Shown here: positions 43,337 to 51,974 of the stretch, piece after piece
Numbering within the stretch: the stretch's first letter is position 1
Layout of the letters: each line of letters opens with the position of its first letter
NCBI GenBank assembly: GCA_025454835.1
Contig: JALONQ010000001.1
Location: 310,001-374,000, forward strand
DNA: 64,000 nt
Direction of reading: 5' to 3'
Origin: Bacteroidota bacterium
GTDB taxonomy: Bacteria; Bacteroidota; Ignavibacteria; UBA10030
The notes under the pieces: model-generated
Database searches by the model: none
What the model saw: the letters and a program-made list of their open reading frames with translations, nothing else
Told to the model about the DNA's origin: nothing
Translations under genes and position numbers: made by a program

Positions 43337-43365
43337 AAAATACCAAGAAAGCCCAGGATTGTCAA
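43337..43365 (-). promoter_or_regulatory. Promoter of the fur-peroxiredoxin unit
   Basis: A perfect TTGACA (43360-43365), 17-base spacer and TATTTT (43337-43342) on the minus strand. The -35 box contains the TGA stop of the upstream YaiO-like gene. The expected start site, six or seven bases past the -10, falls on the A of the fur ATG at 43330. Confidence 0.7.
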
Positions 43366-44225
43366 CGCAGCGAGTATCGAAGGCCCAGAAGAGCCGAAGT
43401 ACTCCAGACGTACGTCCCCCGCTGAAAGCCGACCTCCTGCCGTCCGATGACCCCTTCCATCGTCAAGAGCCAGCCGGACCATCCGAACCACTGAGCTCCG
43501 GCTCCGAACGATTGAGAATGCAGTGTGAACACCTCGGTCGCTGGCACCCCCGAGGCGCTGAAACCCGCCCGCTCGTCCGGCGTGAATCCGGCACCGAAAC
43601 GCAAGAAGATAAATTCATCCCGCCCACCAATGTAGTAGCGCCCCGACGCCATCACCGAGAGCGCCGCGTTTGGCAAGTTCACCGACACATACGGACGTAT
43701 CGAGATCCAGTAGTTGCCCAGATACTTCGCCGCCGAGCCTGTCAGAAGCATGACGGTGCGACGGTCCCTGAATGCGTAGGCTCTGAACCCCACCGAGGCC
43801 TCGAATGCGGATGGCAAAGACGAGAAATACTCCATGCCTCCCCTGTGGCGCGGAAACGGATCCGCCAACCCAACGGCATAGGCAACATAGCCATAAGTCC
43901 CGCCCCCAAAGACCGGATACCACTCGACCTCGGCTTGGGTGCCTCGTGTCGTTCCCCGTTGGCCCAATGCAACCTTCGCGAAGACGGTGCCGGAGTTCCT
44001 TCGATCCCCTGCGTAGAACGTGACCGACCGAAAGGGGTCGTAGTATCGTTCATAGTTGTCCATGTGAACGACCGTCCCGACGAAAGCCTCGGGTGCTGCC
44101 GTCGGTTCGGGCCACAGAAGATCCTGTGCATGCACCGGAGGCACGACGATGCCCACGCCGAAGACAGCCAAGCACCATCGCACGAGGACCCGTTGGAAAT
44201 CAACACTCTTCTCGGTATATTTCAT
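43362..44225 (-). CDS. YaiO-family outer membrane beta-barrel protein
   Basis: A 287-residue exported protein. It has a signal peptide (about residues 10-34, ending VHAQ) and a series of alternating hydrophobic strands (for example TYGYVAYAVGLAD, SIRPYVSVNL, ALLGLRYSLR) ending in an aromatic-rich terminal strand. The overall look matches YaiO-type barrels, which in enterics sit beside the YaiP glycosyltransferase. Here it follows a processive glycosyltransferase gene on the same strand, with a tRNA on the opposite strand between them. A role in sugar polymer export is inferred. The start is at 44225; longer frames run into the tRNA. Confidence 0.7.
   Translation of the reverse strand: MKYTEKSVDFQRVLVRWCLAVFGVGIVVPPVHAQDLLWPEPTAAPEAFVGTVVHMDNYERYYDPFRSVTFYAGDRRNSGTVFAKVALGQRGTTRGTQAEVEWYPVFGGGTYGYVAYAVGLADPFPRHRGGMEYFSSLPSAFEASVGFRAYAFRDRRTVMLLTGSAAKYLGNYWISIRPYVSVNLPNAALSVMASGRYYIGGRDEFIFLRFGAGFTPDERAGFSASGVPATEVFTLHSQSFGAGAQWFGWSGWLLTMEGVIGRQEVGFQRGTYVWSTSALLGLRYSLR
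44193..44221 (+). promoter_or_regulatory. Promoter of tRNA-Ser(CGA)
   Basis: TTGGAA (44193-44198) and TATATT (44216-44221), with a 17-base spacer, lie 15 bases upstream of the tRNA. They overlap the start of the oppositely oriented YaiO-like gene. Confidence 0.55.
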
Positions 44226-44235
44226 AGCTCTCTCA

Positions 44236-44322
44236 GGAAGGGTGCGAGAGTGGTTGAATCGGCCGGTCTCGAAAACCGGAATACCCGCAAGGGTATCGAG
44301 GGTTCGAATCCCTCCCCTTCCG
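44236..44322 (+). tRNA. tRNA-Ser (anticodon CGA)
   Basis: An 87-base serine tRNA with a long variable arm. Acceptor stem GGAAGGG/CCCTTCC, anticodon stem CCGGT/ACCGG around loop CTCGAAA (anticodon CGA, reading UCG), a variable arm with stem ATACCC/GGGTAT, and T arm GAGGG-TTCGAAT-CCCTC. The discriminator is G. CCA is not encoded; the next bases are CTCCA. Confidence 0.95.
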
Positions 44323-44481
44323 CTCCAAGAACCCCGCAACGACGATCTCTTCAGGTCATCGGATGTGGGGTTTGGTTCTTTCTTGGTGCGTCTTCGAAAT
44401 GTTCTGCAACGCAGGAGCTTCGGGGGTTGCCTGCCCTCCTCACGGGCGCCAGCGAGCAGGGACCCTTTCAACACCGGCCGA

Positions 44482-45918
44482 CTATTCCGTAGCTCCGCGA
44501 GGCTGCCGGAATCCCGCCCGCTCCATTTTCCCCCACGCCTTCTCACCGCGCACATACTTCCAGAAGCCCCTCAACCGCCAGAAGACCGTGATCTGGCGGT
44601 ATCCGAAGTTCTCAAGGACACCCATCACGAGCAACACCGCAAGGTGCTTGGGATTCGGGTATCGCCGGAAGGAGATCTCCTCAAGGAGGACGGCACCCAC
44701 GGAGAACATGACCCCGTACACGATGGCGGCGATCACGAAGAGGCCCGTCATGACCGGATCGACCCGGTCGAGCGCCAACAAGACGAGCAACGACACGTAT
44801 CCCAAGGCCTCGATGACAGGCCCAAACAATTCGACGATCAGAAAGTACGGCAACGCCACCGTGCCGACCACGCCGTAGCGCTCGTTGAATACCATATCCC
44901 GATGGATCCACAGAGTGTCCGCGAGGCCTCGATGCCACCGGTCACGCTGGGAACCAAGCACGCGAAGCGACTCCGGCGCCTCGGTCCAGCAGACGGGATC
45001 GGGCACGAACGTGATCTGATACGGCTTGCGCGCGTCGCGAAAATGCCGATGCATGCGCACGACCAACTCCATATCTTCCCCCACCGTTCCCGAGTCGTAG
45101 CCACCCACCTCGATAACGGCCTGCCGGCGGAACATGCCGAAAGCCCCCGAGATGATCAGCAGCGCGTTCAGACTCTGCCAGCCCATTCGGCCCGACAAAA
45201 ATGCCCGGAAATACTCGACGACCTGGAACAACGGCAGCAGATGGCTTGAAAGTCCCACGCGCACAACACGCCCGTTGACGACCTCGCACCCGTTCGCGAT
45301 CCTGACGATACCCCCCGAAGCGACGACCGTCGGATCATCGAGGAACGGCTTCATGACCTTCTGAAGCGCATCGTCTTCAAGGATCGAATCGGCATCGACG
45401 CAGCAGACGTACTCGTACCGTGCCACGTTGATGCCGGCATTCAGGGCGTCGGCCTTTCCGCCGTTCTCCTTGTCGACGACCGTCAGGTTCCGATAAGCGG
45501 CGTTTTTTGAGCGATAGATGCCCCTGACAGGGCGCGTCGGGATCGAAGCCTGGTAAGCCCGCCGCGATCGGACAAGGTCGAAATGGCCGATGAGCGTGTC
45601 GAGGGTCTCATCCTTCGAGCCGTCATTGACGACAACGACCTCATATTCCCCGTACGACAGTTTCAGAAGACTGCGGACGGATTCGACGATGCCGGCCTTC
45701 TCGTTGTACGCCGGAGCGAGGATCGATACCGGCGGAGTGATCTCGGACTGAACGATGATCCGGAAATCGGTGAACCGCGCCTGGCGCACCGCATGCAGCA
45801 CTTCGCCGAACGAGCGGTAGAGCAGTACGACGTACGTCATGTTCACGCCGACGAAGTAGAGGATCGAGAACGCGACGTAGGCATGGAGCCCGATCTCGAA
45901 GAGGTCCATGATCGTCAT
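44482..45918 (-). CDS. Processive family 2 glycosyltransferase
   Basis: A 478-residue membrane glycosyltransferase. An N-terminal membrane helix, then the GT-A domain with APAYNEKAGI and VVNDGSKDET, the DxD motif (CVDADSIL), the GED motif (TVGEDMELV) and QRDRWHRGL, the D-DxD-ED-QxxRW set of cellulose/PNAG/hyaluronan synthases. Three or four C-terminal helices follow. The set predicts a polymerising enzyme. The start overlaps the HEAT gene by four bases. The polymer is unknown. Confidence 0.9.
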   Translation of the reverse strand: MTIMDLFEIGLHAYVAFSILYFVGVNMTYVVLLYRSFGEVLHAVRQARFTDFRIIVQSEITPPVSILAPAYNEKAGIVESVRSLLKLSYGEYEVVVVNDGSKDETLDTLIGHFDLVRSRRAYQASIPTRPVRGIYRSKNAAYRNLTVVDKENGGKADALNAGINVARYEYVCCVDADSILEDDALQKVMKPFLDDPTVVASGGIVRIANGCEVVNGRVVRVGLSSHLLPLFQVVEYFRAFLSGRMGWQSLNALLIISGAFGMFRRQAVIEVGGYDSGTVGEDMELVVRMHRHFRDARKPYQITFVPDPVCWTEAPESLRVLGSQRDRWHRGLADTLWIHRDMVFNERYGVVGTVALPYFLIVELFGPVIEALGYVSLLVLLALDRVDPVMTGLFVIAAIVYGVMFSVGAVLLEEISFRRYPNPKHLAVLLVMGVLENFGYRQITVFWRLRGFWKYVRGEKAWGKMERAGFRQPRGATE

Positions 45919-47033
45919 CCGTCGAACTCCCCGACCTCTTCGAGCACCTGCACCACAACGTCACGCGTCAAGCCCTCCGGCCCCGACGCCATCGCGTGGA
46001 GAGAGGCAAGGCCTTGTTCGCCTGCGTTGGCAAGCGCCCGCGCCGCTGCGACCTTCTCGTCGATCGACCCATCCCGCACCCGCTGTCGAATGGCAGGCAC
46101 CGCCGCCGACGAACCGATCGCGCGAATGGCCCCGAGGGCACGCAGACGCAGGACCGGATGCGGATGACCGATGTACTCTATGAGCAATCCTTCTGATCGG
46201 GCGTCGCCAAGTCGGCCCAGCGCTTCGACCGCCTTGGCCCGTATCGTTATGTTCGGGTACGACGACGCCATGGCCCGCAATCGTTGTACGCTGTCGACGA
46301 ACCCGACTTCGGCCAGCAGTTCAATGCACAACTCTACAATCGTCATGTCCCGGGCCTCGAGGCCATCGAGGAGGTACGGCACCGCCGCAGGTCCGTGCTC
46401 TCGCACGCTCACGGAGATCTCCATCATCTCCCACTGCGAGAGGTCCCGCATCGAGCGGAAAATGGACCCGAACGCCTCGACGCCGACGACATGCAGGAGC
46501 GCCCTGAGCGCCTGCAAACGGACTCCAGCGTGCTTGTCCTCGAGCGCCGCCGCCAAGGCCGCTGTCGCACCCCGCGCCCGCAGTTGGCCTAGGTGCATCG
46601 CTGCTTCTGCGCGCACCCACCAGTGCCGGTGCTTCAACTTCGCGCTGAGCTCGTCGACGAATCCCAGTTCATAGGCGAGGAAGACGATCCGTTCTGACGT
46701 CTCGCCCGACACATCGGCCGCCGTCGATGTCAGGACCGACAGGAAGGCCTTGCGATGGACCGCAAGGTTACGCTTCCAACCGCGCACGATCGTGGCGGTG
46801 AACCGACGGTAGCCCTCAAAGTGACCCTCGGGCAAACGGCCCGTGGACGGAGGGGAAACCTCGGCCACAAGGAACTCCGATACGATCCGGCCGTAGTGTT
46901 CTTCGATCCGGCTGAGCGCACGCACTCGACGTGAAGAAGCCTGCTTCACCGCAAGCAGGATCACAGCTGTCAGCAACACCAGGAGCGTCACCGATGCCGT
47001 GAGGATGAGAAAGACGAACAGCGTCTGGCTCAT
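45915..47033 (-). CDS. Membrane-anchored HEAT-repeat protein
   Basis: A 372-residue protein with one N-terminal membrane helix (about residues 4-28) and then HEAT-like helical pairs, for example HWWVRAEAAMHLGQLRARGA, HAGVRLQALRALLHVVGVE and HPVLRLRALGAIRAIGSSA, to the C-terminus. Such scaffolds usually mediate protein contacts. It overlaps the response regulator gene by one base (TGATG) and the glycosyltransferase gene by four, so it is probably part of their complex or links signal to synthase. No enzyme motif is visible. Confidence 0.82.
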   Translation of the reverse strand: MSQTLFVFLILTASVTLLVLLTAVILLAVKQASSRRVRALSRIEEHYGRIVSEFLVAEVSPPSTGRLPEGHFEGYRRFTATIVRGWKRNLAVHRKAFLSVLTSTAADVSGETSERIVFLAYELGFVDELSAKLKHRHWWVRAEAAMHLGQLRARGATAALAAALEDKHAGVRLQALRALLHVVGVEAFGSIFRSMRDLSQWEMMEISVSVREHGPAAVPYLLDGLEARDMTIVELCIELLAEVGFVDSVQRLRAMASSYPNITIRAKAVEALGRLGDARSEGLLIEYIGHPHPVLRLRALGAIRAIGSSAAVPAIRQRVRDGSIDEKVAAARALANAGEQGLASLHAMASGPEGLTRDVVVQVLEEVGEFDG

Positions 47034-47425
47034 CAGAGGGCGGAGGAAGGTCGGCCGCGTGTCAACAGCGTCTTCTTGACGCGCGCAGCCAATTCGTTCG
47101 GGCTGAAGGGTTTGGTGATGTAGTCCTCGGCGCCGAGTTCGAGGCCGCGAAGCACCTCATGCTCTTTGCTTTGCGCCGTGACCAGGAGGACGGGAATGTT
47201 TTGTGTCGAGGCATCGGCCTTCAAGGCGACCAACACCTCGAATCCCGTCATGAGCGGCATCATGATATCGAGCAAGACAAGGTCAGGCAATACGCTCCGG
47301 GCGGTCGACAAAGCCGCCTCGCCGTTGTCGACGGAGACGACCTCATAACCGCTGTTACGAAGCTTGTACTCGATCAGGTGCCTGATGTGCACTTGGTCTT
47401 CGGCGACAAGGATCTTCTGTGCCAT
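47033..47425 (-). CDS. Single-domain response regulator
   Basis: A 130-residue receiver domain: acidic pair in LVAEDQVH, phospho-acceptor Asp in LVLLDIMMPLMTG, LLVTAQS and Lys in YITKPFSPNEL. No output domain is attached, so it must act through a partner. The start at 47425 (MAQKILVAED) is favoured by the domain boundary. It heads the run with the HEAT and glycosyltransferase genes. Confidence 0.92.
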   Translation of the reverse strand: MAQKILVAEDQVHIRHLIEYKLRNSGYEVVSVDNGEAALSTARSVLPDLVLLDIMMPLMTGFEVLVALKADASTQNIPVLLVTAQSKEHEVLRGLELGAEDYITKPFSPNELAARVKKTLLTRGRPSSAL

Positions 47426-47524: not shown

Positions 47525-47614
47525 GGAGAGATGCAGGAGCGGTTGAACTGGCCACCCTGGAAAGGTGGTATACCGGAAACGGTATCGTGGGTTCGAATCC
47601 CACTCTCTCCGCCA
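47525..47614 (+). tRNA. tRNA-Ser (anticodon GGA)
   Basis: A serine tRNA with long variable arm: acceptor GGAGAGA/TCTCTCC, anticodon stem CCACC/GGTGG around CTGGAAA (anticodon GGA, reading UCC and UCU), variable arm stem ATACC/GGTAT, T arm GTGGG-TTCGAAT-CCCAC, discriminator G at 47611 and an encoded CCA at 47612-47614. The other serine tRNA in the window lacks the encoded CCA. Confidence 0.96.
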
Positions 47615-49703: not shown

Positions 49704-51974
49704 GTGGAAGCGGAGGTGGTCGACAGGATCGTTGGGATCCGCACCTGGGATGACCGAACGCTAAGGATCTACCGGCGCACTGGTGGAACGATCGTCGCCG
49801 CCTCAGTGCCGTTCACACCGTGGCTGGCCATCGCCGACCCGAGCCTGATCGACGTCGCGGGAAGTGCGGTCTCCTCGACCTCGCTCTCCGGCGACGATCC
49901 GCTTCGAACCGTCCTGCGGTTCGACCGGTGGCCGCAGGCGTGGGACACCATTCAGAAGATCTTGGTGACCGAGAGCGAACGACGACGCCAGCGTGTCTCT
50001 TCGTATCTCGACCTCCCCGGTCTCCTGTTCCTTTCCGACCCCGCTGAGCAGTGGCTGGCGGCCTCGAACGCGACCTTCTTCGACGGCCTCACCGCGGCCG
50101 ATCTCGTGCGCATGCAGTTGGCCGTCGAGACCGCGGCACCGCCAGGTCGCCCAAGCCGGTCCGACCGTTCACAGGACCGCATCCTCACCATCGCGGCCAC
50201 CCTCTCCGACGGACGAAAGAGCTCATTCCGCATCAAGAAACATGATGAGGCCACGCTGCTGGCCGAGTTCCATGCATGGTTTGTCGCCGCAGATCCCGAC
50301 GTGGTGGAAGGGATCGATCTGCTCAGTACGACGCTCCCGTACATCGCCGAACGATGCGCGCTCCACGGGATCGAACCCTCGTTCGGACGCGAAGGCGCCA
50401 TGCTGCGTGTGTCGTCCACACCGGTGGGCAAGGGACCGTGGGAACTCCCTGGCCGTATGACCTTCGATCCGGCGGAATCGTTGCGCCACGCCGGTCCGAC
50501 GATCCAGGCGATCGTTTCCGAGGCGCGACCCGCTCGCACCAAGGCGCCGGCCCCTTCAGCCTCGACGCCAGCCAGACGATGTCAGGAGGCCCGACGATGG
50601 TCTGACCCGTGGTGGTTCGCCTTGCTTCCCCTGATGGCGAGCGTTCCCCTCCCTCCCGACCGTTTCATGCGGTCAGGCCCCGGTCATTGGCTGGAAGCAT
50701 GGCTTGTGCGCGAATGCCTCCGCCAAGCGAGGGCGATCCCTTCATCGGGACACTCCGCCACCGCTCTGCCGGAATTCGCGCCGGCCGGAGCAAGCGGTCG
50801 GTTCGCCCCGGCCGCCGAGCTGGTGCTGGTCCCTTCCAAAGCAGCGGCTTGGAGACAATTGAGCGAGACCCAAGCCGCCCTCCTCCCCCCTTGGATCCGT
50901 GGGATCCGAGACCGGTGGGAGCCGACCGTGGACGGCCCGGCTTCAGGGAAAGACCGCACCCTGGCGATCGCTTTGTTGACCGGTCTGACCGATGCCGTTC
51001 GGGCCCGCAGTTCGCGGCTCCACGACACGAGTGTCGCCGAACGACTTGACCGCGCGATCGCCCAGACGGCCGCCACCGTGGCGGCGACCCTCCGGAGACA
51101 GAATGTCGAGGTCATTCAAGAAGTGGGCGAGCGCCTCTACGTGGAGTATCCGGACAACATCGCGGACGACGAGCGGCGACGTTTGTTCTGGACGAAAGTG
51201 AACGTGTCGATGCCCGAAGGACTTCGCGCCGTCCCGCTCCGAATGTTCGACGCGATCGTGTCCGTCGCGCCTCGCATCATGCACGGGCTGTCAGGGCCTT
51301 CGGTGACCCAGCTCCCCCGCCCCCATTCATATCGTTCCCCCGAACCCTTCATCCGCGAGTATCACGCCCGTGCGATCGGTCTCATCCTCCGGTGCCAGTG
51401 GAACCAGCTTCACCAACTTACGTCGGAGACGATTCGGCGCATCAGGAACCGTGCGTGGCACATTTCTGAGTTTTGCCGACGCGATACGCTGACCGGATCG
51501 CTTGATGAGTATGTTCGTGAGCGCGAGGGACGCCGTCGGAATCCGTCGGCGCCGTACGAAGCCCTCTTGCGGGCTCACGGCGCAACGGCCCCTGCCGGCG
51601 ACGCCGGCCCCAACACGCCTCAGTCACGCCGGCACCTCCACGAAGCCGGAAGCACGGTCGTCTACTACATCGCGGGCAATCGCCGGGACCTCTCGATGGC
51701 CGACATGAGCCGCTTGGCGGAGTATTGGGATCCGTCGGCCCCGGATGAGAACACCGATCACTACCTCGACCGACTGCGACAATCCCTCGAGCGGTACCGG
51801 CCACTCTTCTCCGAGCGGGACTTTTCAAGCGTTTTCGAGGAAGAAAGCCTGTTTTCGTTCAACGACGACGACATCGGTCTGGTTCGAAGGTCGCTCGCGG
51901 GTTCGTTGAACAACGACCGAGCCGCCGGACCCGGACTCGGCATCTGGCTCGACCTCCCCGGTCGACCGACTTGA
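49704..51974 (+). CDS. Degenerate family-B DNA polymerase homologue
   Basis: A 756-residue protein that by eye follows a bacterial/archaeal PolB plan but lacks its catalytic residues. In the exonuclease domain (about 120-265) Exo I reads MQLAVET where active enzymes have DxE in MQLDIET, and Exo II reads VVEGIDLLSTTLPYIAERC in place of the N/D pattern GHNIFNFDLPYL. The fingers-adjacent helix RSGPGHWLEAWLVRECLRQA remains recognisable. Palm motif A is lost near residue 370. The motif C segment is VEVIQEVGERLYVEYP (468-483) with no DTD. A thumb-like RSPEPFIREYHARAIGLIL follows. GTG start; it is 15 bases after the slipin gene. Function unknown; probably a structural or DNA-binding role. Confidence 0.65.
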   Translation: MEAEVVDRIVGIRTWDDRTLRIYRRTGGTIVAASVPFTPWLAIADPSLIDVAGSAVSSTSLSGDDPLRTVLRFDRWPQAWDTIQKILVTESERRRQRVSSYLDLPGLLFLSDPAEQWLAASNATFFDGLTAADLVRMQLAVETAAPPGRPSRSDRSQDRILTIAATLSDGRKSSFRIKKHDEATLLAEFHAWFVAADPDVVEGIDLLSTTLPYIAERCALHGIEPSFGREGAMLRVSSTPVGKGPWELPGRMTFDPAESLRHAGPTIQAIVSEARPARTKAPAPSASTPARRCQEARRWSDPWWFALLPLMASVPLPPDRFMRSGPGHWLEAWLVRECLRQARAIPSSGHSATALPEFAPAGASGRFAPAAELVLVPSKAAAWRQLSETQAALLPPWIRGIRDRWEPTVDGPASGKDRTLAIALLTGLTDAVRARSSRLHDTSVAERLDRAIAQTAATVAATLRRQNVEVIQEVGERLYVEYPDNIADDERRRLFWTKVNVSMPEGLRAVPLRMFDAIVSVAPRIMHGLSGPSVTQLPRPHSYRSPEPFIREYHARAIGLILRCQWNQLHQLTSETIRRIRNRAWHISEFCRRDTLTGSLDEYVREREGRRRNPSAPYEALLRAHGATAPAGDAGPNTPQSRRHLHEAGSTVVYYIAGNRRDLSMADMSRLAEYWDPSAPDENTDHYLDRLRQSLERYRPLFSERDFSSVFEEESLFSFNDDDIGLVRRSLAGSLNNDRAAGPGLGIWLDLPGRPT

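Follow-up and report, generated by a model that had tools for sequence, protein, structure and literature searches.

The window analysed in the current work, a stretch of 64,000 nucleotides of Ignavibacteria DNA, contains four neighbouring genes, all on the minus strand, which encode a stand-alone receiver (REC), a HEAT-repeat protein, a glycosyltransferase (GT2) and a YaiO-family barrel. Together with two tRNA genes detected by ARAGORN on the opposite strand, the features of the locus are as follows:

47033..47425, minus strand: stand-alone receiver (REC), 130 aa, without an output domain (Pfam Response_reg, 1.5e-28)
45915..47033, minus strand: HEAT-repeat protein, 372 aa (Pfam HEAT_2, 8.5e-23)
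44482..45918, minus strand: predicted membrane-integrated GT2 polysaccharide synthase, 478 aa (Pfam Glycos_transf_2, 5.8e-26)
43362..44225, minus strand: YaiO-family outer-membrane barrel, 287 aa (Pfam PF19413, 4e-39)
44236..44323, plus strand: tRNA-Ser(CGA), antisense in the gap between the GT2 and barrel genes, one border of the REC-HEAT-GT2 block
47525..47614, plus strand: tRNA-Ser(GGA), upstream of the receiver gene, the other border of that block

The REC stop codon is joined to the HEAT start by TGATG (a one-base overlap), while the GT2 start is joined to the HEAT stop by ATGA (a four-base overlap), exactly as a first-pass annotation, made from sequence alone, had read them. The same annotation had the barrel gene following on the same strand, which held with a correction: tRNA-Ser(CGA) intervenes, and the barrel gene starts at 44225, its open frame extending upstream of this position only as a backward read of the tRNA; both flanking tRNA-Ser genes had been missed. 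Because the upstream part of the barrel frame corresponds to antisense tRNA-Ser(CGA), the GT2-barrel gap measures 256 bp and carries an opposite-strand tRNA, which is also found in this position in a genome of the same genus (L022). No terminator-like site was identified on the minus strand of this gap; since the antisense tRNA splits the barrel gene from the GT2 gene in the window, co-transcription of the two is uncertain.

Four relatives without the module (G005, G030, G009 and G028) have the tRNA-Ser pair side by side, with no block in between, flanked by a peroxiredoxin and an NfeD gene; most relatives of the family which possess the module carry the REC-HEAT-GT2 block between the two tRNA-Ser genes. 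REC-HEAT-GT2 therefore behaves as a single piece in gain and loss, and from this comparison of gene order the tRNA-Ser pair is inferred to flank the block in the manner of an insertion site. The barrel gene of the window lies just outside this tRNA-bordered three-gene block. As observations on the surrounding genes, the NfeD protein of the window genome (L157) forms a long branch and has an unusual amino-acid composition relative to its relatives, and a 756-aa open frame (window 49704-51974) is located downstream of the NfeD gene and that of an SPFH-type protein. Similar genes (cluster c4) occupy the same place in many relatives; the product of this frame, which by eye bears a likeness to a divergent family B DNA polymerase, was not identified.

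Properties of the four encoded proteins

The identity of the four genes, the integrity of their catalytic and phosphorylation residues and the folds of synthase and barrel were established computationally. The receiver possesses the phosphoacceptor D53, which is invariant among 17 close relatives, as well as T83 and K105, and consisting of a REC domain alone (130 aa) with its phosphosite intact at D53, it meets the definition of a stand-alone receiver. A cognate histidine kinase is not encoded at the window locus. Among 69 receivers linked to the module in other genomes, the phosphoacceptor Asp is retained in 67 and the Lys in all 69, and in 64 of these 69 cases the receiver constitutes the C-terminal domain of its protein. 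The HEAT protein consists of a single N-terminal transmembrane helix (residues about 9-27), a segment which is conserved across the family, followed by a cytosolic alpha-solenoid; its proposed function as an adaptor linking receiver and synthase is an inference for which contact data are lacking.

The complete D, DxD, ED and QxxRW set that had been assigned to the GT2 protein was confirmed (D99, D175xD177, E281-D282 and Q324xxR327-W328), being invariant in 41 diverse homologues. An AlphaFold model based on 41 sequences (pLDDT 92, pTM 0.90) was compared by Foldseek with solved structures, of which the Chlorella virus hyaluronan synthase (HAS) is nearest in fold (TM up to 0.69), followed by cellulose and chitin synthases; model and comparison thereby satisfy the expectation of a HAS/BcsA-like GT2 fold with C-terminal membrane helices. 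By motifs and fold the protein is predicted to be a processive membrane-integrated synthase, polymer synthesis and translocation themselves being inferred. PgaC, BcsA and NodC were each matched only below their cut-offs: the best NCBIfam match is PgaC (TIGR03937, 150.8 bits), yet this lies far below the cut-off of 422.3, so that PgaC/IcaA, the PNAG synthase, was rejected. BcsA cellulose synthase (TIGR03030, 59.6 against a cut-off of 699.1, with the C-terminal PilZ domain absent) and NodC chitooligosaccharide synthase (TIGR04242, 50.6 against 550) were likewise rejected, as was a GT2 of the sfz type, the Pfam scan having revealed no N-terminal EpsE-like domain (MshEN-type, type II secretion).

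The barrel protein, the sole YaiO copy in its genome, scores well above the cut-offs of both PF19413 (134.8 bits; cut-off 23.9) and TIGR04390 OMP_YaiO (98.2; cut-off 32). It has an N-terminal hydrophobic segment, with a signal peptide whose end was placed by eye at ...VHA-Q, and its model, based on 28 sequences (pLDDT 86, pTM 0.80), comprises 14 strands, the best solved match being the 14-stranded monomeric porin OmpG (TM 0.65). The signal peptide and transmembrane beta barrel expected of the YaiO family are thus both present. Most relatives have a YaiO barrel preceded by TPR repeats at the N-terminus, which the window copy lacks, and therefore a PgaA/BcsC-like TPR-barrel is the usual form in this system. 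That the barrel acts as the exit pore is proposed by inference, there being no evidence of polymer passage.

Conservation, co-occurrence and distribution of the module

Of 61 relatives, 19 have the HEAT protein; the full set of 61 was searched independently for the YaiO family and for the GT2 subfamily. Among the 53 relatives that are at least 90% complete, HEAT, GT2 and YaiO occur together in the same 15 and are absent from the other 38 (Fisher p 1.6e-13). Wherever the contig permits, and with wider flanks examined, the order receiver, HEAT, GT2 is kept, one extra gene being placed between receiver and HEAT in some relatives. The position of YaiO is variable, as it may adjoin this core, lie between REC and HEAT, or occupy a separate locus. 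In seven of the 15 module-bearing relatives the barrel gene is present on another contig among unrelated genes, six of these seven sharing one setting with a sigma factor, a LiaF-like protein and a CHAT protein; for this reason physical linkage does not account for the co-occurrence. When mapped on a tree of the neighbouring NfeD protein, the trait shows seven changes of state, three of these on well-supported branches, and in complete genomes HEAT and YaiO track GT2 at every change; three supported independent pairs, taken alone, are too few to reach significance.

A wider test was performed on 296 evenly drawn genomes of the phylum (at least 90% complete), with the GT2 subfamily delimited at E <= 1e-100. 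GT2 was retrieved from 69 and YaiO from 68 of these genomes: both were present in 68, GT2 only in one and YaiO only in none, and the two are no more than 10 kb apart in 63 of the 68. The corresponding p-value ignores kinship, and the pattern spans about 41 genera. The sole exception, G193, carries a GT2 gene, and no HEAT, receiver or YaiO gene could be recognised within the 14 kb that were read. The grouping of the four genes is therefore not due to chance, as shown by synteny and near-perfect co-occurrence. The first-pass proposal was to be refuted if the gene order were not conserved in relatives or if the barrel gene were consistently tied to unrelated genes; both checks were run and neither refuted it, since the REC-HEAT-GT2 order is kept in relatives and across phyla, and the barrel is present exactly with the core in complete relatives and almost so throughout the phylum.

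In order to follow the module beyond the phylum, 84,980 species genomes were scanned with a GT2 alignment, and the 80 best loci were taken, with GT2 similarity as the sole criterion. Of the 77 loci that could be judged, 73 have a HEAT gene directly upstream of GT2 and in the same orientation; in three of the remainder (L097, L106 and L133) the place of the HEAT gene is filled by that of a protein bearing a membrane helix at its N-terminus, recognised by eye and missed by the HEAT profile, while the fourth (L108) offers just 1.7 kb of upstream sequence. Of 69 loci, 61 encode a receiver no more than 3.1 kb upstream. The bacterial loci belong to Ignavibacteria, Bacteroidota, Neomarinimicrobiota, Gemmatimonadota, Acidobacteria, Proteobacteria, Bdellovibrio, Myxococcota, Elusimicrobia, Chloroflexi, Actinobacteria, Bacilli and Clostridia, and an archaeal locus among the 80 is from a Thermoplasmatota MAG. 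Independently annotated plasmids of the haloarchaea Halosolutus, Haloarcula and Salinirubellus (L149, L196 and L197) carry response regulator-HEAT-GT2, with kinase genes beside it in Haloarcula, and the module thus crosses domains. Independently annotated records of Erythrobacter and Devosia show the REC-HEAT-GT2 order; among further annotated plasmids, that of Mesorhizobium has kinase-RR-RR-YaiO-HEAT-GT2 with Hpt, and that of Emticicia has RR-x-GT2-x-YaiO-LTA synthase, the protein marked x ahead of GT2 being a match to the HEAT profile. Loci of Legionella, Bacteroides and Planococcus retain HEAT-GT2 without an adjacent receiver, as in the YaiO-HEAT-GT2 arrangement on an annotated plasmid of Legionella adelaidensis, which has no RR.

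The outer-membrane status of the 80 loci was assigned by ourselves on the basis of record titles, 29 being without and 48 with an outer membrane and three unassigned. YaiO is found near the core in none of the 29 monoderm loci as opposed to 30 of the 48 diderm loci (Fisher p 4e-9). Where no nearby copy was present, the whole genome was searched, and YaiO was recovered from a further 10 diderms and from none of the 28 monoderms, so that among core-bearing genomes YaiO is present anywhere in about 41 of 48 diderms as against 0 of 28 monoderms, the former number comprising the 30 nearby copies, the 10 located elsewhere and L069, which was matched to the YaiO-bearing G003. The seven remaining core-bearing diderm genomes, several of which are fragmentary MAGs, yielded no YaiO match genome-wide. 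The restriction of YaiO to bearers of an outer membrane fits what would be predicted for an outer-membrane exit component, an inference drawn from distribution.

Proposed mechanism and rival readings

The four genes likely constitute a two-component-controlled system for synthase-dependent polysaccharide secretion, with YaiO as its outer-membrane exit. In the proposed mechanism, a histidine kinase encoded elsewhere would phosphorylate the stand-alone receiver at D53, and the receiver, having neither a DNA-binding nor an enzymatic output domain, would dock on the cytosolic HEAT solenoid. The latter, held at the inner membrane by its one transmembrane helix, would contact the GT2 protein, either switching it on and off or determining its placement. 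GT2 would polymerise a nucleotide sugar and pass the chain across the membrane by way of its own membrane segments, in the manner of hyaluronan and cellulose synthases, and where an outer membrane exists the chain would leave through the 14-stranded YaiO barrel. Control through receiver-HEAT contact and export through the barrel, as suggested in the first-pass annotation, are compatible with the results yet remain inferences, as no contact or passage data exist; direct evidence is equally lacking for HEAT-synthase contact, for the direction of control and for the identity of the sugar and polymer.

The earlier statement that no PilZ domain is present was confirmed, and for the whole genome rather than the locus alone: genome-wide, 0 PilZ domains and a single GGDEF domain were detected, and control by c-di-GMP and PilZ was therefore set aside for the window genome. 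It was not set aside for lineages with Hpt-REC-GGDEF-REC proteins. In several phyla the receiver protein is of this or a similar architecture, with hybrid kinases upstream, and since GGDEF domains there share a protein with the module receiver, c-di-GMP may matter in some lineages. Kinase or Hpt genes often adjoin the module. The simplest reading, inferred in the absence of contact evidence, is that the phosphorylated receiver would work by contact, the neighbouring HEAT solenoid being its likely partner. A bolder reading, which in our judgement is slightly more apt to fail than to hold, is that the module represents a very widespread and undescribed class of polysaccharide synthase, in which a phosphorylated receiver would directly gate GT2 via the membrane-anchored HEAT adaptor, independently of c-di-GMP, with YaiO as dedicated exit.

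Three other readings were weighed against two-component control of secretion. Synthase and barrel might secrete while receiver and HEAT serve as a scaffold that positions them (for example at a pole or another specific site) rather than as an activity switch. HEAT solenoids are generic scaffolds, and loci without the receiver still retain HEAT, which implies that it has a role of its own beside GT2; against this, the phosphosite is kept in nearly all module-linked receivers and kinase or Hpt genes are often adjacent, which favours signalling over static placement and makes a mere scaffold improbable. The product might otherwise be a cell-bound glycopolymer, teichoic-acid-like or a glycolipid, with LtaS-like decoration, instead of a released exopolysaccharide. 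In favour of this possibility, an LtaS/sulfatase-family enzyme is fused to GT2 in L108 (1524-4739) and in six other Bacteroidota (L200-L205), and a gene of this family is adjacent to GT2 in further genomes, by which decoration of the chain is suggested in those lineages. Nevertheless, no such gene is present at the window locus, the fold neighbours of GT2 make free polymers, and in this phylum the synthase is almost never without an outer-membrane barrel; this reading is thus also considered unlikely.

The remaining possibility, that YaiO is an unrelated general porin and a chance neighbour of the operon, might draw support from the tRNA which separates it from the other genes in the window and from its separate locus in seven relatives. 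It is all but excluded by the phylum-wide figures, in which GT2 and YaiO are together in 68 of 69 genomes and YaiO never occurs alone, and by the absence of YaiO where there is no outer membrane.

Relation to known systems, significance and candidate products

The preferred reading, a receiver-controlled synthase with a YaiO exit, resembles the Bcs cellulose, Pga PNAG, alginate and Pel systems in its membrane-integrated GT2, its exit through a barrel (with or without TPR repeats) and its control by signal transduction. It differs from these in that the window locus lacks BcsB, PgaA, PgaB, PgaD, Alg44 and PilZ, in agreement with the initial claim that no BcsB or PgaB/PgaA-type protein is present (with the qualification that the YaiO of relatives is usually PgaA/BcsC-like); in that the control genes encode a stand-alone receiver and a membrane-anchored HEAT protein; and in that the barrel is of the YaiO family, with 14 strands. 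The yaiS-yaiP-(yaiX)-yaiO locus of E. coli likewise has a GT2 gene near a YaiO barrel gene, but YaiP is a different GT2 (28% identity over 224 aa) and that locus has no HEAT or receiver gene. The xag and sfz clusters of Xanthomonas and Fe-oxidisers, as in the module described here, specify GT2-based EPS under signal control (PMC3609779, PMC8250860), Sfz2 combining its GT2 with an EpsE-like domain at the N-terminus and having a BcsB-like partner (PMC8250860); in contrast to the window module, no HEAT/receiver pair has been described for them. The open-access literature that was searched contained no account of a receiver-HEAT-GT2 module, nor of YaiO with it, and an earlier description may exist; mentions of HEAT or glycosyltransferases in papers on Bacteroidetes iron, EmbRS, Xanthomonas and lipocones were found to be unrelated. 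On this limited evidence, the module appears to be a new version of synthase-dependent polysaccharide secretion.

In most known synthase-dependent systems, control is exerted by c-di-GMP. If control of the synthase by a receiver via HEAT is correct, its spread from Bacilli to haloarchaea would make it a second common logic for the control of polymer secretion. The module also points to matrix production as likely in many uncultured lineages. The YaiO outer-membrane protein family is not known to have a role, and the co-occurrence in 68 of 69 genomes makes its function directly testable; should the bolder reading hold, the family would gain a function as a dedicated exit pore.

Hyaluronan and chitin synthases, which are fold neighbours of GT2, use UDP-GlcNAc. 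Although hyaluronan and chitin synthases represent the nearest folds, sequence identity is only about 15% and a match in substrate is not established. Genes for a sugar nucleotidyltransferase and glmS adjoin the core in Halosolutus, while those for a nucleotide-sugar dehydrogenase and epimerases accompany it in Legionella. The GT2 product is inferred most likely to be a mixed glycan or one containing hexosamine, and may vary from lineage to lineage, the polymer itself not being established.

A further protein family, A6, was considered as a missing part of the module and rejected for the window, being absent from the window genome. Its members, of about 400 aa, have an N-terminal membrane helix and invariant W/D/Y/G/E residues without a Pfam match, and are encoded repeatedly beside the module, at 25 loci ranging from Bacilli to Bacteroidota (for example L036:9369-10550, L038:9773-10969, L080:11949-13145 and L112:10329-13580). 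The A6 proteins of Bacilli are mostly about 1,100 aa in length, the additional part being glycoside hydrolase-like by eye.
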